Assembly: GCA_013817245.1 (NCBI GenBank)
Contig: JACDDA010000001.1
Location: 1 to 64,000 of the forward strand
Source: Gammaproteobacteria bacterium
GTDB taxonomy: Bacteria; Pseudomonadota; Gammaproteobacteria; HTCC5015
Direction: 5' to 3'
DNA: 64,000 bases
Shown: piece by piece, positions 1 to 14,322 of the stretch
How the letters are laid out: each line of letters opens with the position of its first letter
Position numbering within the stretch: the first letter of the stretch is position 1
Program-made: the position numbers and the translations under genes
The notes under the pieces: generated by a model
Databases searched by the model: none
Told to the model about the DNA's origin: nothing
The model's input: the letters and a program-made list of their open reading frames with translations, nothing else

Positions 1-1242
1 AGTCTTTGCCGGCATCCGTGTCGCCGGTTGAGCCGCAATTGGTGCTCCATTGCGCAAGGCCAATGGTGTCGTTCTCAACGTGGCAACGCTCGCAGGTATT
101 GGTGCTGCCCGGATGGCTCGCCGCCGCCGTCGGTTTGTTGCGCAGCGCGGCGGTGGTGCTGACGTGACACGCGACGCAGCTGTTGCCGTTCTTATCACTG
201 GCGTGGTTAAAGGTCCACGCGGTCCAGACGCTGAAGTTGGTGCCGCTGTTGGTGTGGCAACTTTCGCACTCGGCGGTGCCGGTCGGAATGTGGGTGGCAA
301 TTTTAAGATCCGCGCCCCAGGCATTGCCGCTGACGTGACAGGTATCGCAGGTGAGCGCCGCTGAGACGGTGTCGCTGTGGCGCATGCAATCCGCGCCGCT
401 GGTGCCGCCGTCGTTATCACCGCAGGTGGTCTTCCAGTTCGGGGTTACAACCCCGCCGGCATGGCATAACTCGCAGGTCTCGGTCGAGCTTATATGAGTC
501 ACCGCGCTGTAATCGTTCTTGTGCCGACCGCCGCCACTGATGTGACAGCCACTGGCGTTGCAGCCGCTAACGGTACTGCTGTGATCAAAGCCTGCACCGG
601 TCCAGTCGGTGTATTTAACGGGTGTATGGCAGGTATCGCATTCGGCACTGGTGATCGGATGGCCTACTTTGTCCGCTTTGGTCATCGCTAATGCATGCGC
701 CCCACTGTGACAGCTGTTGCAGTTGCTTAAGACCGTGCCACTGGCTTGGCCGTGATCCATGCAGTCTTTGCCCGCATCCGTGTCGCCGGTCGTGCCGCAG
801 TTGGTGCTCCATTGCGCAAGGCCAATGGTGTCGTTCTCAACGTGGCAACGCTCGCAGGTATTGGTGCTGCCCGGATGGCTTGCCGCCGCCGTCGGTTTGT
901 TGCGCAGCGCGGCGGTGGTGCTGACGTGACACGCGACGCAGCTGTTGCCGTTCTTATCACTGGCGTGGTTAAAGGTCCACGCGGTCCAGACGCTGAAGTT
1001 GGTGCCGCTGTTGGTGTGGCAACTTTCGCACTCGGCGGTGCCGGTCGGAATGTGGGTGGCAATTTTAAGATCCGCGCCCCAGGCATTGCCGCTGACGTGA
1101 CAGGTATCGCAGGTGAGCGCCGCTGAGACGGTGTCGCTGTGGCGCATGCAATCCGCGCCGCTGGTGCCGCCGTCGTTATCACCGCAGGTGGTCTTCCAGT
1201 TCGGGGTTACAACCCCGCCGGCATGGCATAACTCGCAGGTCT
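1..1242. repeat. 762-bp in-frame tandem duplication inside the cytochrome gene
   Basis: Positions 1-482 match 763-1244 almost base for base. I see four mismatches in the first 60 bases, one in the next 60 and none after that up to about 480. The period is 762 bp (254 codons), so the frame is kept and each copy adds the same set of CXXCH sites. The first copy continues past the left edge, so the number of copies is unknown. The near identity argues for recent duplication or ongoing homogenisation. Confidence 0.93.
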
Positions 1243-2176
1243 CGCTGGTGCTCGGATGTGCGCCGCTCTTGTACGGACCAATCCCGGTCGGTGTGTGGCA
1301 GCTCACGCCGCAATCCACCGTTAAAGCCGTGTGATCCGTACTAGAAACATCTCTCCAATCAACCGTACTGTTATGACAAACATCACAATCGGAATTAGTA
1401 GGAATATGTCCGGGATGTTTGCCTGTTGCTGTTTGCCCATCGTGACAAGCTTGGCAGTTATCGCGTATTGATAAGTCTATTTCACTGTGCGGCATCGGAA
1501 TTTTGACAGGATTCCATGCAGGTGCTGTGGGTTCATGACAGGCTTCGCAGTTGTTACTCGTGAGGATATGACCAGACAAATCGTCTTCTTTAGAGTTGCG
1601 CGCAAATTGGTCACCATCATTATGACAATCGACACAATCGCCCGTGACTTCGTTGTGATCCATTTTGTGTAATGGACGCCACGTTTGACCATTTAAATGG
1701 CAAGCGTCGCAATTATCGGTGCTGTTGATGTGGGCAGCATCTTTGTCCATAGCAATAACATCGTTATGACAATCCGCACATTCGCCGCGTACATGCTGAT
1801 GGTTTACGGTAACGATATCCGACCAAGCAATGGTGTTATGGCAGGCGACACATTGGGTATCAACGCCCATATGGTCGAGCGTTATAAGGGTTTTTTCACG
1901 CGATAAGGTGCCATTGTCAGGCGCATCAATACCATGACAATCTACACATTGATTAGGAGTATCTCGAAATAAGCCACCTAAATGGCAGGATGCACAGGGA
2001 GCTTTTTCATGAGCATTTTCGAGCACGAAGCCTGTAGTAAAATGATCGAATTTATCGCGAGCTTGTTCTTTTTTGGCGTGGGCAGGCTGTATACATAGAC
2101 ATAGCAATGCGAACAAGATCACGCTTAATGCACGACCTATCCGCTTATAGTCTCTAATAGTCTCACTCAACAACAT
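1..2176 (-). CDS. Giant multiheme c-type cytochrome, N-terminal part (cut by window edge)
   Basis: The minus strand is open for 725 codons from an ATG at 2176 to the window edge. A signal peptide (hydrophobic SVILFALLCLCIQ, then AHA) is followed by heme motifs throughout: I count 21 CXXCH sites (CASCH, CVDCH, CVACH, CADCH, CDACH, CERCH and others), one CX3CH (CGVSCH) and one CX4CH (CNASGCH). Spacing of 20-45 residues and HIPT-type linkers resemble large cytochrome c3/c7-like electron-transfer proteins. It should be exported and hemylated in the periplasm, and may act there or on the cell surface. The C-terminus lies outside, so anchoring and total heme number are unknown. Codons 312 onward are tandemly duplicated with a 254-codon period and are much more GC-rich than the N-terminal third. 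No strong ribosome binding site is visible, so the start is the least certain part. Confidence 0.9.
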   Translation of the reverse strand, partial: MLLSETIRDYKRIGRALSVILFALLCLCIQPAHAKKEQARDKFDHFTTGFVLENAHEKAPCASCHLGGLFRDTPNQCVDCHGIDAPDNGTLSREKTLITLDHMGVDTQCVACHNTIAWSDIVTVNHQHVRGECADCHNDVIAMDKDAAHINSTDNCDACHLNGQTWRPLHKMDHNEVTGDCVDCHNDGDQFARNSKEDDLSGHILTSNNCEACHEPTAPAWNPVKIPMPHSEIDLSIRDNCQACHDGQTATGKHPGHIPTNSDCDVCHNSTVDWRDVSSTDHTALTVDCGVSCHTPTGIGPYKSGAHPSTSETCELCHAGGVVTPNWKTTCGDNDGGTSGADCMRHSDTVSAALTCDTCHVSGNAWGADLKIATHIPTGTAECESCHTNSGTNFSVWTAWTFNHASDKNGNSCVACHVSTTAALRNKPTAAASHPGSTNTCERCHVENDTIGLAQWSTNCGTTGDTDAGKDCMDHGQASGTVLSNCNSCHSGAHALAMTKADKVGHPITSAECDTCHTPVKYTDWTGAGFDHSSTVSGCNASGCHISGGGRHKNDYSAVTHISSTETCELCHAGGVVTPNWKTTCGDNDGGTSGADCMRHSDTVSAALTCDTCHVSGNAWGADLKIATHIPTGTAECESCHTNSGTNFSVWTAWTFNHASDKNGNSCVACHVSTTAALRNKPTAAASHPGSTNTCERCHVENDTIGLAQWSTNCGSTGDTDAGKD

Positions 2177-2662
2177 AACTATTTGTTCATCTACATCCAG
2201 ATTACAACTTTCATTAGTAGAGTATATAGATAGTTAATTAACAATCTGTGCGCCAAATCTCACGGGCGGGCAAGTCTACAGATTCAACGGTAAAAATCGA
2301 AGTCTGAATGTTAAATGCTGCGTTGTCTTAACAGTTGCTCAGCATTCTGCCTGACACTGACAGATCACCCTAAGCTAGCGGCGGCCTGAAATAATAACTT
2401 TAAGTATTATTGCTATAGAGGAAACACTTCGATGAATAACAAGTAGTAAACGCATCCCTATCTTTTTCCGCACTGAAATAATGGGCTCGCCTCGTGCTAA
2501 TGGATTTAGCCATCGAAAACCTACTGTAAAAATTAAAACTCTAATTATGTTTTTTTAAAATTATTTTATTAATAATTTTAACGCGTGACATTGTTAGCGC
2601 TCACAGCAAAAACAAAACAGACCGTCATACTTACATATGACGGTCTGAAAATTTTCAAATAA
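2177..2662. other. Intergenic region, no gene seen
   Basis: An AT-rich 486-bp gap lies between the cytochrome gene and the end of the Glt-like operon, both on the minus strand. It must hold the cytochrome promoter, but I cannot pick a convincing -35/-10 pair. The only clear structure is the terminator hairpin next to the upstream operon, listed separately. No open frame of useful size was found. Confidence 0.6.
2600..2647 (-). terminator. Rho-independent terminator of the Glt-like operon
   Basis: A perfect 12-bp stem (2618-2629 with 2636-2647, arm CAGACCGTCATA) and a 6-nt loop are followed on the minus strand by a T-rich run (TTTTGTTTTTG). It starts 16 bp after the stop codon of the last gene of the operon. 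Confidence 0.85.
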
Positions 2663-4096
2663 TTATTGCGGGAAAAACTCGATCGGATAACGAATCGTAA
2701 TAGAGTCTACGTCTTTAGGACCAAAGTTAAATAAACGCACACGTGTTGCAATCTTCGCTTCAAGCTCTGGATCTTTAAGCTCACTCGACTCCACTGAAAC
2801 ATTTGTTACAGAGCCGGACGGCGAAATAGTTAATTTCAATACTACTTTACCGCGCAAAGTTGGATTGGTACGCAGAGCTCGCTGATACATTTGATACAAG
2901 CTACTCTTATTACGATCAAATACGATTTGAACTTCTTCATCAGTACGCGAACCACGTACTGAATCTTGAGCAAGCGGTTCATTCGCATCACCAAATTCAT
3001 CGCTGATCACACCCGTCATACGCTGTGTGCCACGCGAACCTAAACCTGTACCACCGAAACCAGATCCGCCAACGTCGCGACTCATGCCCGCAACCGCTAC
3101 GCCACCACTACTACCACCTCTGGCGCTAGTGATTAATGAACGTTCGGTTTTACGTGCATTCGCACCGTCTGCTGTTACGCGCGCATTTTTACCTAGCGAT
3201 TGATCTAAATCATTGTCCATTAAATCGGCAAAGCTATCTTGAAATGCGAGCAGACCGGAACGGCTCGCTTTTTCACGCGCTTGTTTTTCCGCGTCGTTTT
3301 TAGGACCGGGTGCTTTTTTCTCTGGCTTTATACCATCATCTTTTTTCACTGAATCATCAGTTTCTTTTTTAGGCGGTGGTGGCGGCGGCGGTGGCGGTGG
3401 TTTGCGCTCTTTAATTAATTGCGCAAAACGATCATCCAAGATGACAACTTTTGGTATCTCTCTGACAGGCAATCTATCAATGTAATAATCAATTAAAAAT
3501 GCCAACAAAAATGCCAACAACAATAACAACCAACGAATACGGTTGTAACGTTTATCGTCTTCGTCTCTATTCCACGGCATGTTTGTGGTATGCCGGAAAT
3601 ACATAACAAACTCGACAGGTCTGCCTTCTGCATCATTAATAATGTATTTTTGCGCACGTGTAAGCGGTCTGATTTTATCTAGTTCAGCACGTGCCGTATT
3701 CGTGATTTCACGTGCTTCACTAAGCACTTGACGTTTTTCGTCGTACTGCTTTTTGATTTCTGCGCGTTTACTTTGCAATGCTGTTAACTGACGATCAATG
3801 CGTGCTGCGTATGCATCACTACGTTTTTTTAATTGTTCGGGAGAAATTACATCTTCAAAAAATAAATGCCCCTCTTCGGTCAAAGGCGGCAAATCCCCCA
3901 AACGACTTAATTGTTGCGAGAGGTTTTTTAAAGCTTGTGCAGTAGCATCTTTAGCATCTAATTCAGCCATGGCCGCATTAATTTCTGCGTACTCATGCTC
4001 AACAATATCTAAACGTATTTTAGTCTCATCATATTTCTCTTGCAGCGCTTGTTCTTGTTCGCTGACGGGTGGTGTCGTATTGTTTTGATTCGCCAT
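2663..4096 (-). CDS. AgmX/PglI-type TonB-like energy-transducing protein (GltG-like)
   Basis: A 477-aa protein. Residues 10-150 are charged and predicted coiled coil. One membrane helix follows at about 188-206 (WLLLLLAFLLAFLIDYY), then a run of ten prolines at about 232-243, a Lys/Glu-rich and Gly-rich linker, and a C-terminal TonB-like AgmX/PglI domain at about 385-477 (VQIVFDRNKSSLYQMYQRAL ... GKVVLKLTISPSG). The layout is that of a TonB protein which spans the periplasm and couples an inner-membrane proton channel to outer-envelope partners. It is the last gene of an operon that supplies an ExbB and two ExbD proteins. In Myxococcus, PglI (GltG) and AgmX (GltJ) share this C-terminal domain and belong to the gliding machine; equivalence here is inferred from domain and context. 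The long cytoplasmic coiled coil is unusual for a plain TonB. Confidence 0.85.
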   Translation of the reverse strand: MANQNNTTPPVSEQEQALQEKYDETKIRLDIVEHEYAEINAAMAELDAKDATAQALKNLSQQLSRLGDLPPLTEEGHLFFEDVISPEQLKKRSDAYAARIDRQLTALQSKRAEIKKQYDEKRQVLSEAREITNTARAELDKIRPLTRAQKYIINDAEGRPVEFVMYFRHTTNMPWNRDEDDKRYNRIRWLLLLLAFLLAFLIDYYIDRLPVREIPKVVILDDRFAQLIKERKPPPPPPPPPPKKETDDSVKKDDGIKPEKKAPGPKNDAEKQAREKASRSGLLAFQDSFADLMDNDLDQSLGKNARVTADGANARKTERSLITSARGGSSGGVAVAGMSRDVGGSGFGGTGLGSRGTQRMTGVISDEFGDANEPLAQDSVRGSRTDEEVQIVFDRNKSSLYQMYQRALRTNPTLRGKVVLKLTISPSGSVTNVSVESSELKDPELEAKIATRVRLFNFGPKDVDSITIRYPIEFFPQ

Positions 4097-4117
4097 AACT
4101 CAAATAACCTATAAAAT

Positions 4118-4615
4118 TTATTGCACAGCTTTTTGGGAAACGGCTAAGGAGATTTTGTCGTAACCTGCAACCGTGCTAGTAGCCATAATTTTTTTCAATA
4201 CTTTAAATTGGATTTCACGATCACCCATAATATTGATATTACGTTTTGCTCCAGAGTCATCAGCAGGTAACACTAACCGAGCAGCTTCTTCTTCTAAAGC
4301 GACACGCAAAGGTTCGATCACAGGATCTTCTGCTGTACTTGCCATCACTTCTACCGTACTCGCAACAACGCGTTCGTTTAACCAAATATCGGTAGGCGTT
4401 ATCATGACGACAGTAGATTTTTCGGGTTTTTGTTCCGCTACTGAATCAGGCAACTTTAAACTACTGGGCGGTTGCATTTCTGCACTACCGGACGTGTTCA
4501 ATAAGAAAAACACAAGAATAGTAAAAACATCCATTAACGAAGTTAAATTGAGTGCTGGAACAGCGCGACTACGCGCACGCTCCATTCGTTTCATTCGCCG
4601 TGATTGTTGTTTCAT
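4118..4615 (-). CDS. ExbD/TolR-family proton-channel subunit (AglQ/AglS-like), with channel Asp
   Basis: A 165-aa protein with a short basic N-terminus, one membrane helix at about 25-42 (LTSLMDVFTILVFFLL) and a periplasmic domain. The conserved ExbD/TolR channel aspartate is present (D29 in SLMDVF). ExbD proteins bind an ExbB/TolQ channel and turn proton flow into movement of a TonB-like or TPR partner. This one lies between a second ExbD gene and the TonB-like gene. The start fits the usual short cytoplasmic tail; the first-position alternative MKRMER is possible. Confidence 0.9.
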   Translation of the reverse strand: MKQQSRRMKRMERARSRAVPALNLTSLMDVFTILVFFLLNTSGSAEMQPPSSLKLPDSVAEQKPEKSTVVMITPTDIWLNERVVASTVEVMASTAEDPVIEPLRVALEEEAARLVLPADDSGAKRNINIMGDREIQFKVLKKIMATSTVAGYDKISLAVSQKAVQ

Positions 4616-4640
4616 TTAATAATCCTGCTTCGAGCGCCTA

Positions 4641-5120
4641 TTAAGGCGCATCACCCACTGAAATTTCAGGGAATAATTCATACCTATCAATAATGCCGCC
4701 CGGTTTTTCAATTTCGACACGGCTTACCGCATCCATAACTTTTACCATGGCTTCGTAACGTAACTCGGGCTCCATCAATACGGTGGCATCTAATTTATCG
4801 GGGAAATTATTTTTAATTTCACGCAATACATTTCGCAAACCCGCAATATCGTATTCACCTTCTTTAGAATTTGGAAAACGCGTAACAATTTGCAAACCAT
4901 CACCAATTTCCAAACGATCTTTTCGTACGATAACTTCTAATGCAATTTTCTTTTCATCCGCGGCAGCAGCGCCACCCGGGGAAGGTAAATTTAATTGCAA
5001 AATTGTAACGCGTGAAAACACCGCCGAGATCAACAAAAACGGCACTAAAATCACCATCAAATTTAAGAAGGCGGTGATATCCAGATCCGGGGGGATTTGT
5101 GGGCCCCGACGTCTAGCCAT
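4641..5120 (-). CDS. ExbD/TolR-family protein lacking the channel Asp (Asn instead)
   Basis: A 159-aa protein from the ATG at 5120 (MARRRGPQ), overlapping the ExbB stop by 8 bp; a GTG five codons upstream is a weaker alternative. The single helix reads DITAFLNLMVILVPFLLIS. Aligned with the neighbouring ExbD (LTSLMDVFTILVFFLL), the proton-carrying Asp is replaced by Asn (N20). A periplasmic domain follows. The pair of unlike ExbD proteins beside one ExbB matches the AglR-AglQ-AglS layout of the Myxococcus machine, but the loss of the Asp suggests a structural rather than proton-relaying role. Confidence 0.88.
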   Translation of the reverse strand: MARRRGPQIPPDLDITAFLNLMVILVPFLLISAVFSRVTILQLNLPSPGGAAAADEKKIALEVIVRKDRLEIGDGLQIVTRFPNSKEGEYDIAGLRNVLREIKNNFPDKLDATVLMEPELRYEAMVKVMDAVSRVEIEKPGGIIDRYELFPEISVGDAP

Positions 5121-5769
5121 TTTTTGACGCCTCACGACGTGAAACTTCAGATAACAAATTTAAAGTTTTAACTGATGCCATTTCTAAGCTATCAACAATT
5201 TGACCGGTTTTGGTTGTTAAGAATGTATACAACAACAACAAAGGAATACCCGCAATCAAACCAAACGCTGTGGTATTCATGGCCACCGCGATCGCGCCTG
5301 ATAATACGTCAGCACGCTTAGCAGGATCGACACCAGTTACTTGACTAAACGCTTGAATCAAACCCATAACCGTACCCAGCAGACCCAACAAAGTTGAGAT
5401 GTTTGCCAAAATACCTAGATAGTGAGTACGACGTTCGAGCTGAGGAATAACTTCCATCATGCCTTCTTCCATCGCGATTTCGATATCATCACGACGACGA
5501 GCTGCGCCATGGCGACTCAAACCTAAACTTAACACCGTGCCAATTTCAGTATTCGAATGCGCTGTCATTTCACGTGCGCGCTCAAACTGACCTTCTTCTA
5601 AAACAGGCTGTAATTCTGCCCACATTCTGCGATTTTGACGTTCCACTTTGGATAATTTCATATAGCGTTCAATAGCAATTGCAACGCCCCAAGCAAACAC
5701 AAAACCGATTGGTGCCATAAAAATGCCACCTTCATACATAAATCGCCAAGTATCATAAATCAACTGCAT
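5113..5769 (-). CDS. MotA/TolQ/ExbB-family proton channel protein (AglR-like)
   Basis: A 218-aa protein with three membrane helices, at about 15-32, 115-140 and 160-185, and a cytoplasmic loop between the first two, as in TolQ/ExbB. The second and third helices carry the small-residue pattern of the family (LANISTLLGLLGTVMGLIQAF; AVAMNTTAFGLIAGIPLLLLY), with Thr residues lining the pore. It should form the inner-membrane proton channel with the two ExbD proteins encoded directly downstream. AglR is the matching Myxococcus protein; TolQ proper is less likely because no tolA, tolB or pal gene is nearby. Confidence 0.93.
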   Translation of the reverse strand: MQLIYDTWRFMYEGGIFMAPIGFVFAWGVAIAIERYMKLSKVERQNRRMWAELQPVLEEGQFERAREMTAHSNTEIGTVLSLGLSRHGAARRRDDIEIAMEEGMMEVIPQLERRTHYLGILANISTLLGLLGTVMGLIQAFSQVTGVDPAKRADVLSGAIAVAMNTTAFGLIAGIPLLLLYTFLTTKTGQIVDSLEMASVKTLNLLSEVSRREASKNG

Positions 5770-5824
5770 AACGCTCTCCTCACCTTCGTAATTTTAATTA
5801 ATTGTACAAAAAAATATTTCGCCT

Positions 5825-6124
5825 TTACGGCTCAACAGCAGCGACCGGGTCTCCGGAATTCGCGAATTGGTAATATTCTAATTCGCGCATAAACACATCT
5901 CTGTCTAACACTATCAAGCGTTCATCTAGAGTATTGGTCAATTGTGTTTCAAGACCTACCGCAGAACTTTTCCAAGGCACGATAAATAAGGTTTTTGGTA
6001 ATTCACGATTACCAATAATGGATGTACCCCGCATATCCACAACCTCACCTTGCGCGAAGCTCAGCGACGTAACACAGATCAATAAGATACAAACGCTAAC
6101 TCGTTGCCACAAAGTCATCATCAT
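5825..6124 (-). CDS. Small exported protein of the Glt-like operon, function unknown
   Basis: A 99-aa protein with a signal peptide (VSVCILLICVTSLSFA, then QGEVV), so it is probably periplasmic, with a mature part of about 75 residues. I do not recognise a family. Its ATG overlaps the stop of the upstream TPR gene (TAATG), which implies translational coupling and membership of the same machine. The mature part contains PKTLFIVPWK and ends with an acidic tail. Confidence 0.75.
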   Translation of the reverse strand: MMMTLWQRVSVCILLICVTSLSFAQGEVVDMRGTSIIGNRELPKTLFIVPWKSSAVGLETQLTNTLDERLIVLDRDVFMRELEYYQFANSGDPVAAVEP

Positions 6125-6840
6125 TAACTTCCCTTGCTCACAGGAGCAACAGTTGTTGATTCAGGGGCAGGTACCGAATTGTCAACAGGTAGTGCCGATG
6201 GCGGAGTAGCGCTCGGCTCGGCAATACCCGCACGTTGACGTACGTCGCTCAACCACATGCTAACTTTTTGAGCATCACTAGGATTTAACTGTTGATACTT
6301 TTCAAAATGTTCCACTGCGCACTTCGGTAGATCAATATAAATATCACATAATACGCCTAAATTAAGATGCACTTTGGCATAAGCTGGATCACTTTTTATG
6401 GCTTTTTCATAGGCTTTTTTGGCTTCTTCGAATTGCCCCGTGCGCCGCAAAAATAAACCATATTCATTTTGCGCAACGGCATTCATAGGATCAACTGCTA
6501 CCGCTTTCGCTAACGCAGCGCCGGCTTTTTCCATGTTATCTGCATTATCAATATCACCGCTTAACTTCATATAAGCAATACCAAGATTGATATACGCGCC
6601 GGTTAACTGATCATTTTTTGCAACAATCGCTTCCAATAATGGAATCGCTTCGGCATATTTCTCTTGTTTCATAAAACTTAATGCTTCTTTAAACCGCGCT
6701 TCAACCGCAGCACTAACTTCTACTGGCTTACGATCGCGATAATTAGCACTCGTGCTCATTCCACCGGTGCATGCAGTCAACATCAACGTCATCATCAATA
6801 ACGCTGCATATAAACCCTGCGTTGAGTTAATAGATGGCAT
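6124..6840 (-). CDS. TPR lipoprotein (GltE/AglT-like)
   Basis: A 238-aa protein from the ATG at 6840, which has GGGGAG upstream and overlaps the preceding gene by 14 bp; a start 11 codons earlier is possible. A lipobox (LMLTAC) predicts a lipoprotein. Tetratricopeptide repeats fill about residues 45-190 (for example AIPLLEAIVAKNDQLTGAYINLGIAYMKL; AKVHLNLGVLCDIYIDL), and a Pro/Ser/Ala-rich tail follows. Size, lipid anchor and position suit an outer-membrane scaffold like AglT (GltE) of the Myxococcus machine; that match is inferred. Confidence 0.85.
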   Translation of the reverse strand: MPSINSTQGLYAALLMMTLMLTACTGGMSTSANYRDRKPVEVSAAVEARFKEALSFMKQEKYAEAIPLLEAIVAKNDQLTGAYINLGIAYMKLSGDIDNADNMEKAGAALAKAVAVDPMNAVAQNEYGLFLRRTGQFEEAKKAYEKAIKSDPAYAKVHLNLGVLCDIYIDLPKCAVEHFEKYQQLNPSDAQKVSMWLSDVRQRAGIAEPSATPPSALPVDNSVPAPESTTVAPVSKGS

Positions 6841-9800
6841 TGACAAAGTTCTCCCCTGCTTCTTGCTTGGCATAACGCACTGGCAGCAACTTGCCTAACT
6901 GCTCAATACTTTTATCGATCCAACCATTAAATATACCGGTGGATAATAATTCGAGATTTTTCTCATAGACTGCAATTGCTTTTTCTTCGAAAGGATACGC
7001 TTGTTCTTCTAAGACCAACTGATACTGCTCTAACTCCAACTCATCTAAATTCTTAGGGCGCTCAGAATTAAGCAGATCGACACTAAATTGATAATAGATG
7101 CCCGCAATTTGATAAGTTGCCGCAGCAATCACTTCAGCTACACCATACTCGGTAAGCTCGCTATAAGCTTTAATAGCTTTTTGCATTTTTTCTTTTTTAA
7201 CCGCCAAGGTTTTTTGGAATGGTTCTTTTAATGGCGATTCTTTGAACACTTGTAAAATCGGTTCATTTAATACAAACGCAGATTTAGCGGCCAAATACTT
7301 TGTACGGTCGGTGCGTTCACTGCCCGCGGTTTTATCAACGCGCACAATTTCTTTTAGCATGTCGGTGTAATTATTTGTTTTACCGGTTTTTTGATACAAC
7401 TGAGCAATGTGATAACGCGCTTCCACTGCGTCCTCTACAGGCTTCGGATAATTTTTCACGAAACGCTCATAACGAGAAATTGCTGTGTCTAATTGCCCTG
7501 CTTTTTCATAAAACTCAGCGGACAATGTCATCGCTTCTTTTTTCACAGCAGGCTCTACTGCTTGCTCTGCAATTCGGTCATATTCCAACGCCGCTTCCGC
7601 TAATTTGCCATTTTTTTGATAAACGTAAGCTAATTTTGTAGTCACATCAAATTGCAATTTATGACTGGCGAATTGTTGACGAAAGCCACTTAATACGACG
7701 GTTGCCCGATCCCATTTTTCTGCAGTAATTAAAATAACTGCGGCGTCATATTCAGCATTGGGGCGAATTTTTGAATCTGGCGCCAATTGTCCTATGCGCA
7801 TGAAATTATCAACCGCTTTGTCAATCTCGCCTTTATCTTTTAATACTTCCGCTTGCTTATAAATGGAAGCAGCATAATTATCTACGACAATTAAACGACG
7901 CTGATCATCTTTGGGCAACAGGTCTAACACCGATTTATAAGACGCTTCGGCTTCATCATAACGCGCTAATTCAAACTTCGAATGTGCAATCACAATCCAG
8001 TTTGCCATTAACAATTTTGCATCTGCTTTAGGATGATCTTTAACGACTTTATCTGCCACATCAATAGCACGATCATACTCTTTCAATGCATACAAATTTT
8101 CCGCCGCATTCGTCAGCACTGCGGGCGCTTCAGGATGGGTAGGAAAAGTATCGCCAAATTGTAAAGAGCTACGAATCATTTCATTATGAGCATTCGCTTG
8201 TTGATGCACGGGCACAACTTTTTCATAATCGCGAAACGCTATAATCGCCGCGTAACCTGCTTCAGCTGATTTTTCATGTGCAGGATAAGCATAGGCAGTT
8301 CGTTCATACTCCACCGACGCTTCTCTATAAGCTTTATTTTCATAGAACAATTCAGCCAATAAGAAATTCATGGCCGGCGCTTGTACATCTTGAGGGAAAG
8401 ACGCTAAAAATTCTCGATACCAGCGAGCCGCTTCAACATACGCCGCTTGCCGTTCTTCCGGCTTTCCGGCGCGCTGCGACAAAGCATGATAATGCTTAGC
8501 CAGATCATTTAGATTGGTTTTAATAAAGGCCAAAATATCAGGGGATTTTTTAATATCATGTTGGCGCCAATAATCACCGTTGATGGCATAACGCGCGGCA
8601 AAATCTCGTTTAGTATCAATAATCAAAATAGGGAAGCGACCTTTGATATAAACATCGATCGTATTCATATGAAATGCTGGTGCTTTTTCGTGCATCGGAT
8701 ATTGATTAATAAAAGTCAAATACGATTCTGCCGCATCAGCATAACGACGTTTTTCTAAAAAGTGATCAGCCAAACTAGCGTAGACCAAATCTTCATAACT
8801 ACGCGGACCGCGAGTTTGGAAATACTCGACGATCGAACTCGGGCCGCCAATGTAGGAAAAAGTTAAACTCATCACGCGTAACGTGTCATCAACGCGCTGA
8901 TATTCGGTTTTATTGGCTTCAGGATTTAAGTGATAACCTGACGCTGTTTTCATATCAAGCAACACTACAAAATCATCAAGTGCTTCGGCATACATGCTTT
9001 GTTTAAATAATGACCAACCGCGTTTAAATAATGATTGATCATAATAAGCAGAAACTTGCCCAATTTTAATGACTTCACCGTAAGCCTTTTCAGCATCCAG
9101 GAATTTGCTACGCACAAAGAAAATTTCACCGCGTCTAAATTGGGTTTCGTCGATATGCCGCGTATTCGGATAAGTTTTAACGATGCGATCAAGAATAACC
9201 ATGGCTTCATCTTGACGGCCAGTTTCTTCATAGGCACGTGCTAATTGATAAAGCACTTCATCATTGCGATCGTAATTAGGATATTTTTCCAACAAGGTTT
9301 TATAAAGATTGATGGCTTGCTCAGTATCGGCGGCGGCTTCTGCACCCGGTATATCACTGCCGGCATTTGCTGCCAACGTTGTTACGCCAGTGGTACGGCG
9401 TTCAAAATCTTTATCTGATTCACCTGGTTGCTGAGGCTTATCATTATTTTTTTGCATCGCCGCGACAATCGGTGAATCTACTGCTGCACTACCTTCACGA
9501 CCTTTGATAACAGTTTTTTCTGCATTACCAGGAAACAATACTTCAAAATCAGCTGAACTTTGTTCGCCCCCAGCCGCAGAAAAAAACTTTTTGGGAGCCG
9601 CTTTAGGCGCGCCCGCAATCAATTTTCCATCCGCACCTAATTCACGATCACGACGCACTTGTTTCACGAATTCATAAGTGCCCGAGCCTTTTTCTAACTG
9701 CAAGTCGGCTAACCGACGCATCGCTTCAGGTGAAGCGGCTGCATCTTCCGGCATTTCTAAAAGAAACTGCTTATAAGCTGACATCGCTTTTTCTAATGAG

Positions 9801-9958
9801 TCTTCAATGATCGGCTCATCAATAACAACTTCTTGGTCACGCAAACTCGCAATACTGTCGCGATAATTAACACCGCCGCCTAAACAGCCCGCACCTAAGG
9901 TCGCAATGACGGTTATAAAACTCACTTTTAAATAGTTTTTATAAGTATCGGTTTTCAT
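6827..9958 (-). CDS. Large TPR lipoprotein (GltD/AgnA-like)
   Basis: A 1043-aa protein with a lipoprotein signal (ATLGAGC, Cys at about 25), an Ala/Pro-rich spacer to about 200, then TPR-like helical repeats to the end (AINLYKTLLEKYPNYDRNDE; AYEETGRQDEAMVILDRIV; EAALEYDRIAEQ). TPR solenoids bind other proteins, so this is probably the main periplasmic or outer-membrane scaffold. It overlaps its upstream neighbour by 4 bp (ATGA). Large TPR proteins of about this size are part of the ancestral Agl/Glt set (GltD). YfgC/BamD-like assembly roles cannot be excluded from TPRs alone, but the ExbB/ExbD/TonB-like neighbours favour an energised machine. Confidence 0.88.
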   Translation of the reverse strand: MKTDTYKNYLKVSFITVIATLGAGCLGGGVNYRDSIASLRDQEVVIDEPIIEDSLEKAMSAYKQFLLEMPEDAAASPEAMRRLADLQLEKGSGTYEFVKQVRRDRELGADGKLIAGAPKAAPKKFFSAAGGEQSSADFEVLFPGNAEKTVIKGREGSAAVDSPIVAAMQKNNDKPQQPGESDKDFERRTTGVTTLAANAGSDIPGAEAAADTEQAINLYKTLLEKYPNYDRNDEVLYQLARAYEETGRQDEAMVILDRIVKTYPNTRHIDETQFRRGEIFFVRSKFLDAEKAYGEVIKIGQVSAYYDQSLFKRGWSLFKQSMYAEALDDFVVLLDMKTASGYHLNPEANKTEYQRVDDTLRVMSLTFSYIGGPSSIVEYFQTRGPRSYEDLVYASLADHFLEKRRYADAAESYLTFINQYPMHEKAPAFHMNTIDVYIKGRFPILIIDTKRDFAARYAINGDYWRQHDIKKSPDILAFIKTNLNDLAKHYHALSQRAGKPEERQAAYVEAARWYREFLASFPQDVQAPAMNFLLAELFYENKAYREASVEYERTAYAYPAHEKSAEAGYAAIIAFRDYEKVVPVHQQANAHNEMIRSSLQFGDTFPTHPEAPAVLTNAAENLYALKEYDRAIDVADKVVKDHPKADAKLLMANWIVIAHSKFELARYDEAEASYKSVLDLLPKDDQRRLIVVDNYAASIYKQAEVLKDKGEIDKAVDNFMRIGQLAPDSKIRPNAEYDAAVILITAEKWDRATVVLSGFRQQFASHKLQFDVTTKLAYVYQKNGKLAEAALEYDRIAEQAVEPAVKKEAMTLSAEFYEKAGQLDTAISRYERFVKNYPKPVEDAVEARYHIAQLYQKTGKTNNYTDMLKEIVRVDKTAGSERTDRTKYLAAKSAFVLNEPILQVFKESPLKEPFQKTLAVKKEKMQKAIKAYSELTEYGVAEVIAAATYQIAGIYYQFSVDLLNSERPKNLDELELEQYQLVLEEQAYPFEEKAIAVYEKNLELLSTGIFNGWIDKSIEQLGKLLPVRYAKQEAGENFVNAIY

Positions 9959-12006
9959 AGCGCAGGTACCGTAGTACTTTTATCCGATTCGGCAGCAACG
10001 GGAGCAACCGATTCAGCAGGGGTTTCTACTGCTTTATCGCGCTCCTCTTTAATAATACTTTGTTGTTGCTTCATTATTTCTTCAGCATCACGCGCTTGTT
10101 TTTTGGTGGCCCGATCGTAACTTTCTGCTAATGCAAAGCGGGCTTTCACGCGATAGTCCGCCAACTTTTGGCGCCGACGATCAAGTTCCATTACGGTAAC
10201 TTTTTCTAAATAACGAGCTTGTTGATCCATTACACCATCAATACGCGTCAACATGGACTGTAAACTAGTGGCATTACGCTGAAACGGTGCCTGATAACCA
10301 TCGTAACTTTGATAAGCCTCTTTCTTTAAACGCACAATTACGGCGTGCTGTGCACGTAGCGTCGCTAATAATTGATCCAATTCTTTTGCGTGTTGGTGCG
10401 TTTGCGCTAATCGTGTGTCGTATTCGGTATTCAAGCTCCAAAAAATACGACCTTTTAAACGAGCAAGCCGCGCCGTTGCATCAGCAACACCCGGCTGTGG
10501 TGGTAATTGACGAATTTTATTTTCTATTTGCTGAAATTGACGCTGCCATTCCAATTCTTCTTTAGTCGACAATGCATAAACATCTCGACGATTTTGTGTG
10601 CTTTGTAACTGTGTTACTAACTGATTACGACGACGTTCAACCCAATTCAACATGGTGTCGAGATAATGGAATCGATCTTCAATGACAGGTAACAACGGTT
10701 GGTAATATTGTTTACGGGTTTTCAACAAATCATCATAAGCTTGCAAACTGCGTTGCCAATCTTGCACATTACGTTTCATTCGACCTAAATCACGATAATT
10801 TTTAATAGAATCATGAAAATCATTACTCGCCATTAAATCGAGCAAATAACGGGTTTCCGGTGCGTCTGGAGTTTTTACCAGTGACTCAATAAAAGAATCG
10901 TTTACTTCATCAGGATCACGCAAGAGTGCATCCCGTAATTTACCTTGCATGATATTTAAGATTGAACTATCGAGCCGGTCAATTTCTTTATCAAATTCTG
11001 CGACTGCTTTGCCATACAAAATCGCGGCGCGGCCATAAGCTTCTAATTTGGAATAAGCAAAAGGTAATGCAAGCAATGATTCTTGCACTGCTGCATCCCG
11101 TGGATCGCGAGCATTCAAAATCGTCCACGGTGTGAGTGCGCGCTTATATTGCCCTTGAGCCGCATCTGCCCAACCCGCGTGCAATAATGTTTTATTCGAA
11201 TACGGTCCGCTTAAACGCACGCGATCGAGATAAGGTCGGCCCAATTGCGGATAGCCTTCTTGCAATAAACGATAACCTAAAGCGACATTTGCTTTATCAC
11301 GTAAAGCATTCATCTCCTCGCCGCCCATGCTAAAGCGACCAATTTGATCCAGTTTTTGTGCGCCATCTTCTAATTTGCCATCCAACATCAAGGCTACGCC
11401 CGTGTTGTAAATGGCGTATGCATCCCACGGTGGTGAACGTACGTTTTTTAATAATTTAACGGCTTCAGGATATTTTTTTTGGGTAATTTGAATTTGGCCG
11501 CCCAACAAATAAATGCGGTCTTCCCATTCTTTGGGTAACTTACCTTTGATTTTGTTATAGGCCTGCAAGGCATTTTCAAAATCACTTTTTTGATAATACA
11601 AACGCGCTAAATGATAAGCCGCGGTATTGCGCGTCTGATCATCTGCTTTGTCGTTATTAATAAGCTTTTCAAGAGCGCGCCCGGTTTTTTGATGCATTCG
11701 AAAAGCGAGTTCGAGTTTACCGGTCGATAGCTCCGCATCATTACGATGTTCCACAAAAGGATCACGGCCAGGTTCATCCAAGCGATAATGCTGAATCAAT
11801 TCAGCGTCCAACCGTACGATGGCATTAAAATAATCTTTGCTATACCAGTAATACAATGCTTCGCCGTAATACAAATCACGTAAAGCCGGCGCTCGTTGTT
11901 CTTGTGCAGACGCAACTAGCATAGACATACATAACGCTAAACCTGCGCCAGCACGAATTGAATATTGCAAAAAAAGATTGTTACAACAGCGCACTGTGAT
12001 TACCAA
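9955..12006 (-). CDS. Exported TPR/coiled-coil protein (GltC-like)
   Basis: A 683-aa protein when read from the TTG at 12006; a GTG at 11994 is an alternative and neither has a clear ribosome binding site. A hydrophobic signal (AGLALCMSMLVASA) precedes a TPR-rich N-terminal half (ALQAYNKIKGKLPKEWEDRI; AVKLLKNVRSPPWDAYAIYN) and a long charged, largely helical C-terminal half (about 430-660) with a Gln/Lys/Glu-rich tail. Length and place before the large TPR gene fit GltC, one of the seven core genes of the Agl/Glt family. The name is inferred; the periplasmic location is better supported. Confidence 0.85.
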   Translation of the reverse strand: MVITVRCCNNLFLQYSIRAGAGLALCMSMLVASAQEQRAPALRDLYYGEALYYWYSKDYFNAIVRLDAELIQHYRLDEPGRDPFVEHRNDAELSTGKLELAFRMHQKTGRALEKLINNDKADDQTRNTAAYHLARLYYQKSDFENALQAYNKIKGKLPKEWEDRIYLLGGQIQITQKKYPEAVKLLKNVRSPPWDAYAIYNTGVALMLDGKLEDGAQKLDQIGRFSMGGEEMNALRDKANVALGYRLLQEGYPQLGRPYLDRVRLSGPYSNKTLLHAGWADAAQGQYKRALTPWTILNARDPRDAAVQESLLALPFAYSKLEAYGRAAILYGKAVAEFDKEIDRLDSSILNIMQGKLRDALLRDPDEVNDSFIESLVKTPDAPETRYLLDLMASNDFHDSIKNYRDLGRMKRNVQDWQRSLQAYDDLLKTRKQYYQPLLPVIEDRFHYLDTMLNWVERRRNQLVTQLQSTQNRRDVYALSTKEELEWQRQFQQIENKIRQLPPQPGVADATARLARLKGRIFWSLNTEYDTRLAQTHQHAKELDQLLATLRAQHAVIVRLKKEAYQSYDGYQAPFQRNATSLQSMLTRIDGVMDQQARYLEKVTVMELDRRRQKLADYRVKARFALAESYDRATKKQARDAEEIMKQQQSIIKEERDKAVETPAESVAPVAAESDKSTTVPAL

Positions 12007-12536
12007 TGCTTAACCTTGATTTGAGGATCAGCAGGATTACCTACCACTTGTATTTCAACAAACTTTGGACCCAACTCTTTATTGATCTCGAACGCTGCTT
12101 TGCGAGTATAACTAGTACCTTCACCCGCCGAACGACCTTTAACAGTGACGGTACCTTGATGTTTGCCAGTGGTCGCATTTCCCGTGTAAAGCCGTTGAAC
12201 GCCTCCTTTTTGCAAGGCCTCCACTTCACGGAAACTGTAAACGTGATTAGCAACTACTTGTGCATCTAAAGTGAAATCCACCGAATCAACTTGAAAGAAT
12301 TCATCTTTGGTGGATAAAGACAAGAAAACAGAGACTTGAGTGGTCGATGGGAAGAGTAACTTCTCTTCTAATAAAGACAGCTCCTGATTAATCTGGATAA
12401 CGTCTTTTTTAAGTGTCTGAACTTGATCATCAATACCTTTAAGTTCTTCACGTCCCGGCGCGCTGGTATCCGCGGCCCAACTCAAGGTGATCACACACAA
12501 GGCTGCAACGCCCACTAATGCACGTATTGAATTCAC
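12000..12536 (-). CDS. Exported protein of unknown function, first gene of the Glt-like operon
   Basis: A 178-aa protein from a GTG start with GGGGGAG seven bases upstream. A signal peptide (ALVGVAALCVITLSWA) precedes a short heptad-like helix at about 32-60 and a beta-rich domain (TTQVSVFLSLSTKDEFFQVDSV; GGVQRLYTGNATTGKHQGTV). I cannot name the family. Its stop codon lies inside the start region of the next gene, so it belongs to the operon and is probably a periplasmic accessory part. Confidence 0.8.
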   Translation of the reverse strand: MNSIRALVGVAALCVITLSWAADTSAPGREELKGIDDQVQTLKKDVIQINQELSLLEEKLLFPSTTQVSVFLSLSTKDEFFQVDSVDFTLDAQVVANHVYSFREVEALQKGGVQRLYTGNATTGKHQGTVTVKGRSAGEGTSYTRKAAFEINKELGPKFVEIQVVGNPADPQIKVKHW

Positions 12537-12699
12537 GTTGTCTCCCCCAGTACGGTACTAACAAATAGCGAGGTTGGTAAACCTTCAGCGCTTTGTTAGT
12601 CAATATACTGACTAATTTTACATTCTGGTTTCAGTCCCACTGCTAACCAGTTGATTTTTAAATGCTAATTGACTTACCAATTTCGCAGAAAGTGAAACT

Positions 12700-14322
12700 C
12701 TACCTGTTTTTTAGGCGTTCCACCAGCCGTCGAGTAGAACTACTCACCGTCGTCGGCATTTTTTCTTGCCCCAACCAAGCGCTCACTGACTTAGCCAAGG
12801 CCTTGCCGTATTCGACACCCCATTGATCAAAAGAATTCAAGCGCCAAATAACCCCCTGCACAAATACTTTATGCTCATATAAAGCTAACAATGCGCCTAA
12901 GCTGAAAGCATCAAGACGCGGTAATATCAGAGCATTGCTACAACGATTACCGGCAAACTGTCGATACACCGCTAAATATTTCGCTTCACCGGGCAATAAT
13001 TCGGTTTCTGCTTCGCTTCTACTTTTACCTTGCATTAAAGCTTCCATCTGCGCCAGCGCGTTAGCTAACAAAAACTGGTGGTGCTGCGGCCAATGTGCAT
13101 CACCTTCCGCAAGCAAAATAAAATCCATAGGAATTTGTTGAGTCCCTTGATGTAGTAATTGAAAAAATGCGTGCTGACCATTCGTGCCGGCTGCGCCCCA
13201 TAACACCGGTCCGGTACTATAATCGACCCATTCTCCTGCACGATCCCAACTCTTACCATTACTCTCCATATCCAGCTGCTGCATATACAAAGGCAGACCC
13301 GCTAAACGTTGAGCGTATGGCAACAACGCATAATTTGTGCAGCCCCAAAAATTGTGCTGCCAAATGCCTAACAAAGCCAAAATAACGGGCATGTTTTTTT
13401 CAATCGGTGCGGTACAAAAATGTTGATCCATCGCATACGCACCGGCTAGAAATTGATCAAATTGCTCAGATCCCACCGCCAGCACTAAAGGCAAACCAAT
13501 ACTGGACCAAATGGAATAACGCCCACCCACCCAATCCCAAAATAAAAAACAATTTTTAGCGGGAATACCAAATTCAATGGCGGCATTCGGCGCGGCGGTA
13601 ACAGCTACAAAATGCTGCGCAAAAGCTTTTGGATCGCTGCCTACTTGCTGCTCAAACCAAGCGCGCGCACCGCGGGCATTGGTTAACGTTTCCAGCGTCG
13701 TAAAACTTTTTGACGATACGATGAATAAAGTATTGCTGGGCTGACAATGAGCCAGCACATCATTTAACTGTGCACTATCAATATTAGAAACAAAAAATAA
13801 AGTTAAATCTGGGCTCGCATAAGGCTGCAATGCAGCATAGGCCATCGAAGGTCCAACATCGGAACCACCAATACCAATATTGACAATATTAGTAATCAAA
13901 TCGCCTTGATAGCCGCGCCATTGACCACTGCGCACCTGCTCAGCAAAGTCATACATTTTCTGACGTGCCGCTACAATCTCTGCGTGCAAACCGTCGGTTG
14001 ATGTCAAATGCGTTTCAGCAGGTACGCGCAAGGCCACATGCAGAACAGGTCGCCCCTCACTATGATTAATGTGCTCGCCGGCAAACATACGGTTACGCCA
14101 GTCTTGCCAAGCAGCATCTTCGACTAATTGATGCAATAAGCTGAGCGTTGGATCATCAATGTGATTTTTAGAATAATCGAGAAATAAACCAGCCGCTTCG
14201 ACACTATATCGTTCCGCTCGCGCGGGGTCTTCTTGAAATAAGCTGCGCAAAGTTCGGTCACGCCACTGCAATTGTTGGGCTTGCAGAGCCTGCCAAGTCG
14301 GTGATTCAGTCAAACGTGACAT
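12700..14322 (-). CDS. pgi: Glucose-6-phosphate isomerase
   Basis: A 540-aa enzyme from the ATG at 14322, close to the 549 aa of E. coli Pgi. It interconverts glucose-6-phosphate and fructose-6-phosphate in the cytoplasm. Family signatures are clear: NIVNIGIGGSDVGPSMAY in the first SIS domain, SSKSFTTLETLTNARGA in the phosphate-binding region, and a C-terminal FDQWGVEYGKALAK. It has no operon partner: a gap separates it from the Glt-like operon, and the panD terminator lies upstream. Confidence 0.97.
   Translation of the reverse strand: MSRLTESPTWQALQAQQLQWRDRTLRSLFQEDPARAERYSVEAAGLFLDYSKNHIDDPTLSLLHQLVEDAAWQDWRNRMFAGEHINHSEGRPVLHVALRVPAETHLTSTDGLHAEIVAARQKMYDFAEQVRSGQWRGYQGDLITNIVNIGIGGSDVGPSMAYAALQPYASPDLTLFFVSNIDSAQLNDVLAHCQPSNTLFIVSSKSFTTLETLTNARGARAWFEQQVGSDPKAFAQHFVAVTAAPNAAIEFGIPAKNCFLFWDWVGGRYSIWSSIGLPLVLAVGSEQFDQFLAGAYAMDQHFCTAPIEKNMPVILALLGIWQHNFWGCTNYALLPYAQRLAGLPLYMQQLDMESNGKSWDRAGEWVDYSTGPVLWGAAGTNGQHAFFQLLHQGTQQIPMDFILLAEGDAHWPQHHQFLLANALAQMEALMQGKSRSEAETELLPGEAKYLAVYRQFAGNRCSNALILPRLDAFSLGALLALYEHKVFVQGVIWRLNSFDQWGVEYGKALAKSVSAWLGQEKMPTTVSSSTRRLVERLKNR

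Follow-up and report, generated by a model that had tools for sequence, protein, structure and literature searches.

Introduction

What does a relative of the myxobacterial Agl/Glt gliding machine do in a gammaproteobacterium? The question is raised by an operon of nine open reading frames, all on the minus strand, at 2663-12536 of the stretch of DNA analysed here, i.e., positions 1 to 64,000 of contig JACDDA010000001.1 (assembly GCA_013817245.1, GTDB lineage HTCC5015), referred to below as the window. The genes are named p9 to p1 in the order of their transcription (Table 1). An original prediction, made from the sequence alone, described them as encoding one ExbB, two ExbD proteins, an AgmX/PglI-type protein, three tetratricopeptide repeat (TPR) proteins and two small exported proteins, followed by one terminator, and this layout was confirmed by the open reading frames and by searches of Pfam and NCBIfam.

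A stand-alone core complex in Gammaproteobacteria, encoded by the "group B" genes and of unknown function, is described in two earlier studies [Luciano 2011 (PMC3169522); Wartel 2013 (PMC3858216)], the second of which regards it as a possible basal transport machinery. What the Agl/Glt core does outside the myxobacteria has been an open question since 2011, though roughly a quarter of the sampled gammaproteobacterial genomes carry it: homologues of p7 were found in 88 of 369 genomes (about 24% of an even sample), a number of which carry two. Here, the operon of the window is identified as a stand-alone Agl/Glt core machine, and it is argued with moderate confidence that the likeliest task of the machine in the window's subclade is to export, mount or move a giant DUF11 surface protein (4187 amino acids, aa, in this genome) together with an OmpA/barrel partner (1740 aa).

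The operon encodes an Agl/Glt core complex

The relationships of the motor were determined from a tree of 52 ExbB sequences, which included TolQ and ExbB of E. coli, the TolQ of the genome under study and the ExbBs of myxobacterial genomes; the latter genomes had been located with an MglA sequence that matched a Myxococcus contig with 100% identity. The 16 operon ExbBs form one clade (support 100/98) and share one branch (100/97) with Myxococcus, Hyalangium and Nannocystis ExbBs of the AglRQS type. Excluded from this branch are TolQ and ExbB of E. coli, the genome's own TolQ (L001) and the other myxobacterial ExbBs, apart from one Sorangium ExbB of unassigned type (L214), which falls inside. 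Thus, p4 groups with the AglRQS type and apart from TolQ/ExbB, as the original prediction implies; against the NCBIfam model for tolQ it scores 58 bits, the cut-off being 221. The genome has a further ExbB–ExbD pair (L002, contig C5, 1303-3361) directly upstream of a gene for an MsbA-like ABC transporter, and its ExbB sits near the base of the Agl-type branch.

The other parts of the machine have myxobacterial counterparts as well. The profile of p3 finds the first ExbD, and that of p2 the second, in the motors of Myxococcus and Nannocystis. With the p7 profile, four GltD-like genes were recovered from the Myxococcus genome (best E-value 1.9e-76), and comparison of profile hidden Markov models (HMM-HMM) aligns p7 with myxobacterial GltD over 871 columns (1.2e-82). 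In NCBIfam, p1 matches the AgmX/PglI C-terminal family (2e-20) and GltG (3e-18), the latter below the equivalog cut-off because the N-terminal part differs; its C-terminus aligns with that of myxobacterial GltG over 97 columns (7.7e-22, HMM-HMM). For p9, the comparison with the myxobacterial counterpart gave 3.2e-08.

Because TPR proteins match one another generically, the three TPR families were also compared in every off-diagonal pairing, as a control. Each family matches its own myxobacterial counterpart best, with HMM-HMM scores of 709 for p7 (off-diagonal at most 110), 141 for p6 (84) and 141 for p8 (90-94). Taking p6 first, the E-value against myxobacterial GltE is 2.5e-19 (other TPR proteins, 3e-10), but in NCBIfam PilW scores higher (2e-18) than GltE (1e-11), so that gene order helps the GltE assignment. 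For p8, the E-value against the myxobacterial proteins in the GltC position is 6.5e-17 over a TPR baseline of 2e-10, its hmmsearch bits are not above the TPR cross-matches, and its place in the operon agrees with GltC; a sequence search of the PDB with p8 returned generic TPR proteins alone. The GltE assignment and the putative GltC assignment thus rest partly on gene order, and GltC is the weakest of the three. The predicted relationship of the TPR proteins to those of the Glt system is nevertheless detectable for GltD and GltE, and probably for GltC. From the ExbB tree and the profile matches it follows that the system is the core complex defined by Luciano 2011 (PMC3169522); the predicted Agl/Glt-type core is therefore supported, and under the name "core complex" it was already in print (PMC3169522, PMC3858216).

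The arrangement of the nine genes is far beyond chance: of the 63 gammaproteobacterial loci sampled, 42 have all nine in the identical order, and none has another. The remaining loci are cut by contig ends, are without a detectable member, or, in three cases (L064, L067, L277), are without the motor and transducer genes (p4-p1). Two of these motorless loci, from two families, consist of p8-p7-p6-p5 sets that directly follow type VI secretion genes (L067, 3-10950; L277, 2-10924); the neighbours are TssF, TssG and a ClpV-like ATPase according to Pfam in L067, and look alike by eye in L277. In these, the scaffold may have been taken over for use in a different machine. The third (L064 of genome G059, 363-12734) has p9-p5, with an exported 45-heme cytochrome 3.4 kb downstream and an HZS-alpha module upstream.

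In Nannocystis (L225), the core genes, including those of the motor, are ordered as in the window. In Myxococcus sp. CA023 (L216, 115-7301) and Hyalangium (L220, 6185-16081), the GltD-like gene most similar to that of the gammaproteobacteria adjoins mglA; before it come a weak homologue of p9 and a TPR gene in the p8 position. MglA itself was not detected in any of 15 gammaproteobacterial genomes, in a search that did recover the control, which fits the prediction of a core without the motility-specific genes. None of GltA, B, F, H, I, J and K is encoded within the operon, no genome-wide search for them having been made.

The two ExbD proteins differ at the proton-carrying position

Where TolR and ExbD have their proton-carrying Asp, p2 has Asp in 56 of 56 operons, whereas p3 has Asn in 55 of 56, including the window; two further p3 sequences were left out of the count as spurious fragments. 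The sole p3 with Asp is in L267 (p3 at 5044). Both channel threonines, T145 and T178 in TolQ numbering, are retained in p4; these residues of ExbB are known to face the proton-carrying Asp. The Myxococcus and Hyalangium motors examined have Asp in both ExbDs; that of Nannocystis has Asn, then Asp.

Since the sole protonatable Asp is in p2, the working axle is either a p2/p2 homodimer or, more likely, a p3/p2 heterodimer. Judged by this residue, p3 on its own cannot be a proton carrier, and would serve as the structural half of a heterodimer or have another role. In this natural motor family one partner is almost always proton-dead, which rules out a p3/p3 axle as a proton motor. This bears on a question about the ExbD-type subunits of AglRQ/S, for AglQ and AglS each have a conserved aspartate and it is not known whether they form homodimers or a heterodimer (PMC9389320).

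A giant DUF11 protein and an OmpA/barrel protein accompany the window's subclade

The genes beside the operons were compared by clustering the flanks and by inspecting longer stretches. A giant exported protein of DUF11 repeats (1,600-5,000 aa), with an OmpA/beta-barrel partner, co-occurs nearly one-to-one with the operon subclade to which the window belongs. In ten genomes, all of them subclade members outside the window's own family (G139, G312, G302, G103, G319, G169, G022, G362, G347, G338), the gene of the giant protein immediately follows p1 on the same strand, and in G251 the start of such a gene does so. Where the sequence is readable, the next gene encodes a protein of 1,700-1,800 aa with OmpA domains and a beta-barrel-like C-terminus.

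The giant proteins have a C-terminal tag of 120 aa in common. A profile of this tag (E<1e-35) finds 13 of the 369 genomes, all of which have the long-type operon; in the fourteenth long-type genome, G319, the start of the DUF11 gene beside the operon is on a contig that ends there. The association of tag and long-type operon has a Fisher probability of 5e-23, which, like the other Fisher tests here, overstates the significance because genomes are treated as independent, with no correction for kinship. The tag carriers, with G319 counted via its truncated neighbour gene, form one clade of the ExbB tree (100/94). The length of p1 was rejected as a marker of the subclade, as a long p1 also occurs in two loci that do not belong to the clade.

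In the genome under study, the tag protein is encoded on another contig, C3 (tag at 270336-270668, within an open frame of 4187 aa), and its gene is followed by that of the 1740-aa OmpA/barrel protein. Base 1 of the window is also base 1 of contig C1, where an exported multiheme cytochrome gene is cut by the contig start (Table 1); a 3′ part of such a gene is at the very end of C3, on the same strand and immediately before the gene of the giant DUF11 protein. The final 127 bases of C3 match the repeat within the C1 cytochrome gene at 98.4% identity, with agreement in orientation and frame, whereas the broken cytochrome at the end of contig C9 has no match to that repeat. To judge from the shared repeat, it is highly probable that C1 and C3 are neighbours, separated by 54 bp or by 54 bp plus whole repeats. 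On the simplest reading, the order would be operon, cytochrome, giant DUF11 gene and OmpA/barrel gene, as in the relatives, with a cytochrome gene inserted. The cytochrome at the end of C9 belongs to a second multiheme cluster (L305, 6297-9888), comprising a membrane cytochrome-like protein, a 553-aa protein with 21 hemes, and the start of an 8-heme protein cut by the contig end.

Other operon types have a different constant neighbour. The p7 gene is present in 51 of 56 genomes that have an HZS-alpha (PF18582) protein (Fisher 1e-32), and in all 36 cases where both are on the same contig they are 7-23 kb apart. The HZS-alpha-like proteins of these types have 2-3 CxxCH motifs, and their neighbours include outer-membrane barrels, a TlpA-like thioredoxin and DUF3570. 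HZS-alpha is absent from the genome under study, and for this reason the upstream genes of the other types were rejected as a clue to the window operon. One subclade thus has a constant partner pair, and others have a constant neighbour of another kind, which provides a concrete candidate client for the core complex.

What the machine might do

What the data show are the gene content, the kinship to AglRQS and to GltD, GltG and GltE, the Asn/Asp difference, and the co-occurrence and linkage of the giant pair with the operon. Taken together, these parts can be arranged into a mechanism, which we infer as a whole, including its assembly across the envelope, the heterodimer and the client. A pentamer of the ExbB p4 with an axle of the two unlike ExbDs, p3 and p2, would use the proton gradient to move the TonB-like p1, which would reach across the periplasm and contact an outer-membrane scaffold of the TPR proteins p8, p7 and p6 and the small exported proteins p9 and p5. 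The machine would then export, mount or move the giant DUF11 protein, its putative client, together with the OmpA/beta-barrel partner. There is a precedent for the handling of cargo, as Agl is described in Wartel 2013 (PMC3858216) as moving Nfs proteins and the spore-coat polymer over the surface of Myxococcus. The original prediction had offered secretion, envelope transport or adhesin movement as examples of what the core might power; the giant partner points to the powered process better than this general list.

Several observations weigh against the giant DUF11 protein as client. The tag has no match in Pfam. Six genomes have a shorter form of the giant pair (about 2,200 aa) with a weaker tag (E-values 1e-33 to 1e-23), and in four of the six the operon is entirely absent; hence the pair can exist without the machine. 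As the tag carriers are one clade, the association is one inherited event and its independent weight is below the p-value. In G001, a member of the window's own family (L291, 315-11952), the operon has RHS/YD-repeat genes downstream and the tag protein is elsewhere. In the window, a strong terminator divides p1 from the downstream genes, and the C1–C3 junction, with its minimal gap of 54 bp, is a reconstruction. The short DUF11 proteins with the weaker tag (L347, L348, L349, L350, L356) are mostly encoded beside an OmpA/barrel gene.

The best surviving alternative, though an unlikely one, is that the machine serves electron transfer by exporting or positioning giant multiheme cytochromes. The next gene in the window encodes an exported cytochrome with at least 21 hemes, the 45-heme relative lies near the G059 operon and a 36-heme one is nearby in G195, and other operon types are linked to the CxxCH-bearing HZS-alpha-like proteins. 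Furthermore, the operon is present in 26 of 40 genomes with the cytochrome family and 62 of 329 without it (p 4e-9, genomes treated as independent), or, at the level of families, in 21 of 29 and 26 of 153. However, a control, the MtrB/PioB porin family, is likewise enriched (operon in 15 of 27 genomes, odds ratio 4.6), and therefore part of the cytochrome signal is lifestyle. In addition, large cytochromes are adjacent in only two lineages (that of this genome, G000, and G059/G195), the G059 operon is the one without motor genes, and in the window the terminator stands between p1 and the cytochrome gene. As a general client, the multiheme cytochrome was rejected, since it is not adjacent in most loci and the control is enriched too.

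It is quite improbable that the core moves the cells over surfaces as Agl/Glt does in Myxococcus, with adhesins of its own. The homology of motor, transducer and TPR scaffold would suit such a role, and the giant surface protein could be a moved adhesin, but MglA, the polarity switch of Myxococcus gliding, is the protein missing from the 15 gammaproteobacterial genomes, which makes gliding unlikely, and Luciano 2011 (PMC3169522) argues that motility is not driven by the core alone. That the operon is a TonB/Tol-like system, serving nutrient uptake or the upkeep of the outer membrane, is very improbable, for although the parts are of the ExbB/ExbD/TonB-like kind, p4 lies outside TolQ/ExbB in the tree and the genome has a separate TolQ.

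The handling of the giant DUF11 protein thus remains the preferred role. Tentatively, it can be taken further: the window's subclade may be a dedicated trans-envelope system of 11 or 12 genes, in which a proton motor, its axle an obligatory heterodimer with one Asp, would drive a TonB-like arm and the TPR scaffold so as to export the giant protein and mount it via its OmpA/barrel partner, here with the addition of a giant multiheme cytochrome. If true, the Agl/Glt class would have a branch that handles proteins, and the purpose of the orphan core complex would be explained.

Features of the window

Signal peptides, lipoboxes and the transmembrane (TM) helix were called by eye from the sequence. 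The two ExbD genes match Pfam ExbD with E-values of 1e-12 and 6e-13, and TPR matches were found in p8, p7 and p6 alike. The listed frame of p6 overlaps p7, and the true start of p6 is probably inside that frame. The first gene product, p9, is conserved in 18 operons and no Pfam family was found for it; its fold predicted from the single sequence is of moderate confidence (pLDDT 71), and identification by fold was rejected, as the best PDB matches, many of them transthyretin, were not significant. For p5, no family was found in Pfam or NCBIfam. Upstream of the operon, on the same strand, are genes that by eye resemble pgi and pan genes.

Table 1. The operon, its terminator and the adjoining cytochrome gene, in order of transcription
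Feature	Position	Strand	Description	Support
p9	12000..12536	-	First gene; 178 aa, exported; signal peptide, one long helix, eight-strand beta domain	
p8	9955..12006	-	683-aa exported TPR protein, GltC-position	Pfam TPR, HMM-HMM
p7	6827..9958	-	1043-aa TPR protein with lipobox, GltD homologue; long form with N-terminal extension	
p6	6124..6873	-	TPR protein of about 249 aa with lipobox, GltE homologue	
p5	5825..6124	-	99-aa exported protein; motif NxExPKxxxIVPWK conserved (18 operons)	
p4	5113..5769	-	ExbB/AglR-type motor subunit, 218 aa	Pfam MotA_ExbB 6e-26
p3	4641..5135	-	First ExbD, AglQ-position, 164 aa	Pfam ExbD
p2	4118..4615	-	Second ExbD, AglS-position, 165 aa	Pfam ExbD
p1	2663..4096	-	477-aa GltG-like transducer: cytosolic coiled coil, one TM helix, proline stretch, AgmX/PglI (TonB-like) C-terminus	
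Terminator after p1	2618..2647	-	Intrinsic; 13-bp stem and T run	
Multiheme cytochrome, 5′ part	2..2176	-	Exported c-type cytochrome, 725 aa, 21 CxxCH, 762-bp internal repeat; cut by contig start	

Comparison with known systems

With the Agl-Glt machine of Myxococcus xanthus the operon has in common the AglRQS-type motor and homologues of GltD, of the GltG C-terminus, of GltE and probably of GltC. It differs in that MglA was not found in the gammaproteobacterial genomes tested, in that the GltG-type protein is shorter in the window operon, and in that the reference motors of Myxococcus have Asp in both ExbDs where the window's family has Asn in p3 and Asp in p2. Unlike in the window's subclade, the tag of the giant partner was not found in the four myxobacterial genomes searched.

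The Agl-Nfs spore-coat machine of Myxococcus has the same class of motor (PMC3858216), but its cargo is a polysaccharide and it serves sporulation, whereas a protein client is proposed for the window's subclade. GldLM, of type IX secretion, is a functional analogy: it too is a proton motor, and giant surface adhesins are what it moves or exports (PMC9389320, PMC8986121); the likeness is that of the general 5:2 motor class, beyond which no homologues were found and none were sought, and the analogy is a lead rather than a relationship.

The closest known system is the gammaproteobacterial core complex (PMC3169522, PMC3858216), which is the same set from the same bacterial class, with homologues of aglR, Q and S and of gltC, D, E and G in one region together with one or more extra genes. 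According to Luciano 2011 (PMC3169522), the extra core gene is without a homologue in Myxococcales; p9, which may be that gene, has a weak myxobacterial homologue beside mglA. The Asn/Asp split, the DUF11/OmpA-barrel subclade and the HZS-alpha-linked type are not mentioned in the passages of these two accounts that were consulted or in the other papers found, and no published link between this core and DUF11 giants or multiheme cytochromes was found in the literature. Thus, relative to the literature found, four features of the core appear to be new: the Asn/Asp axle, the subclade with the giant protein, the HZS-alpha-linked type, and the distant homologue of p9 next to mglA in two genomes of Myxococcaceae.

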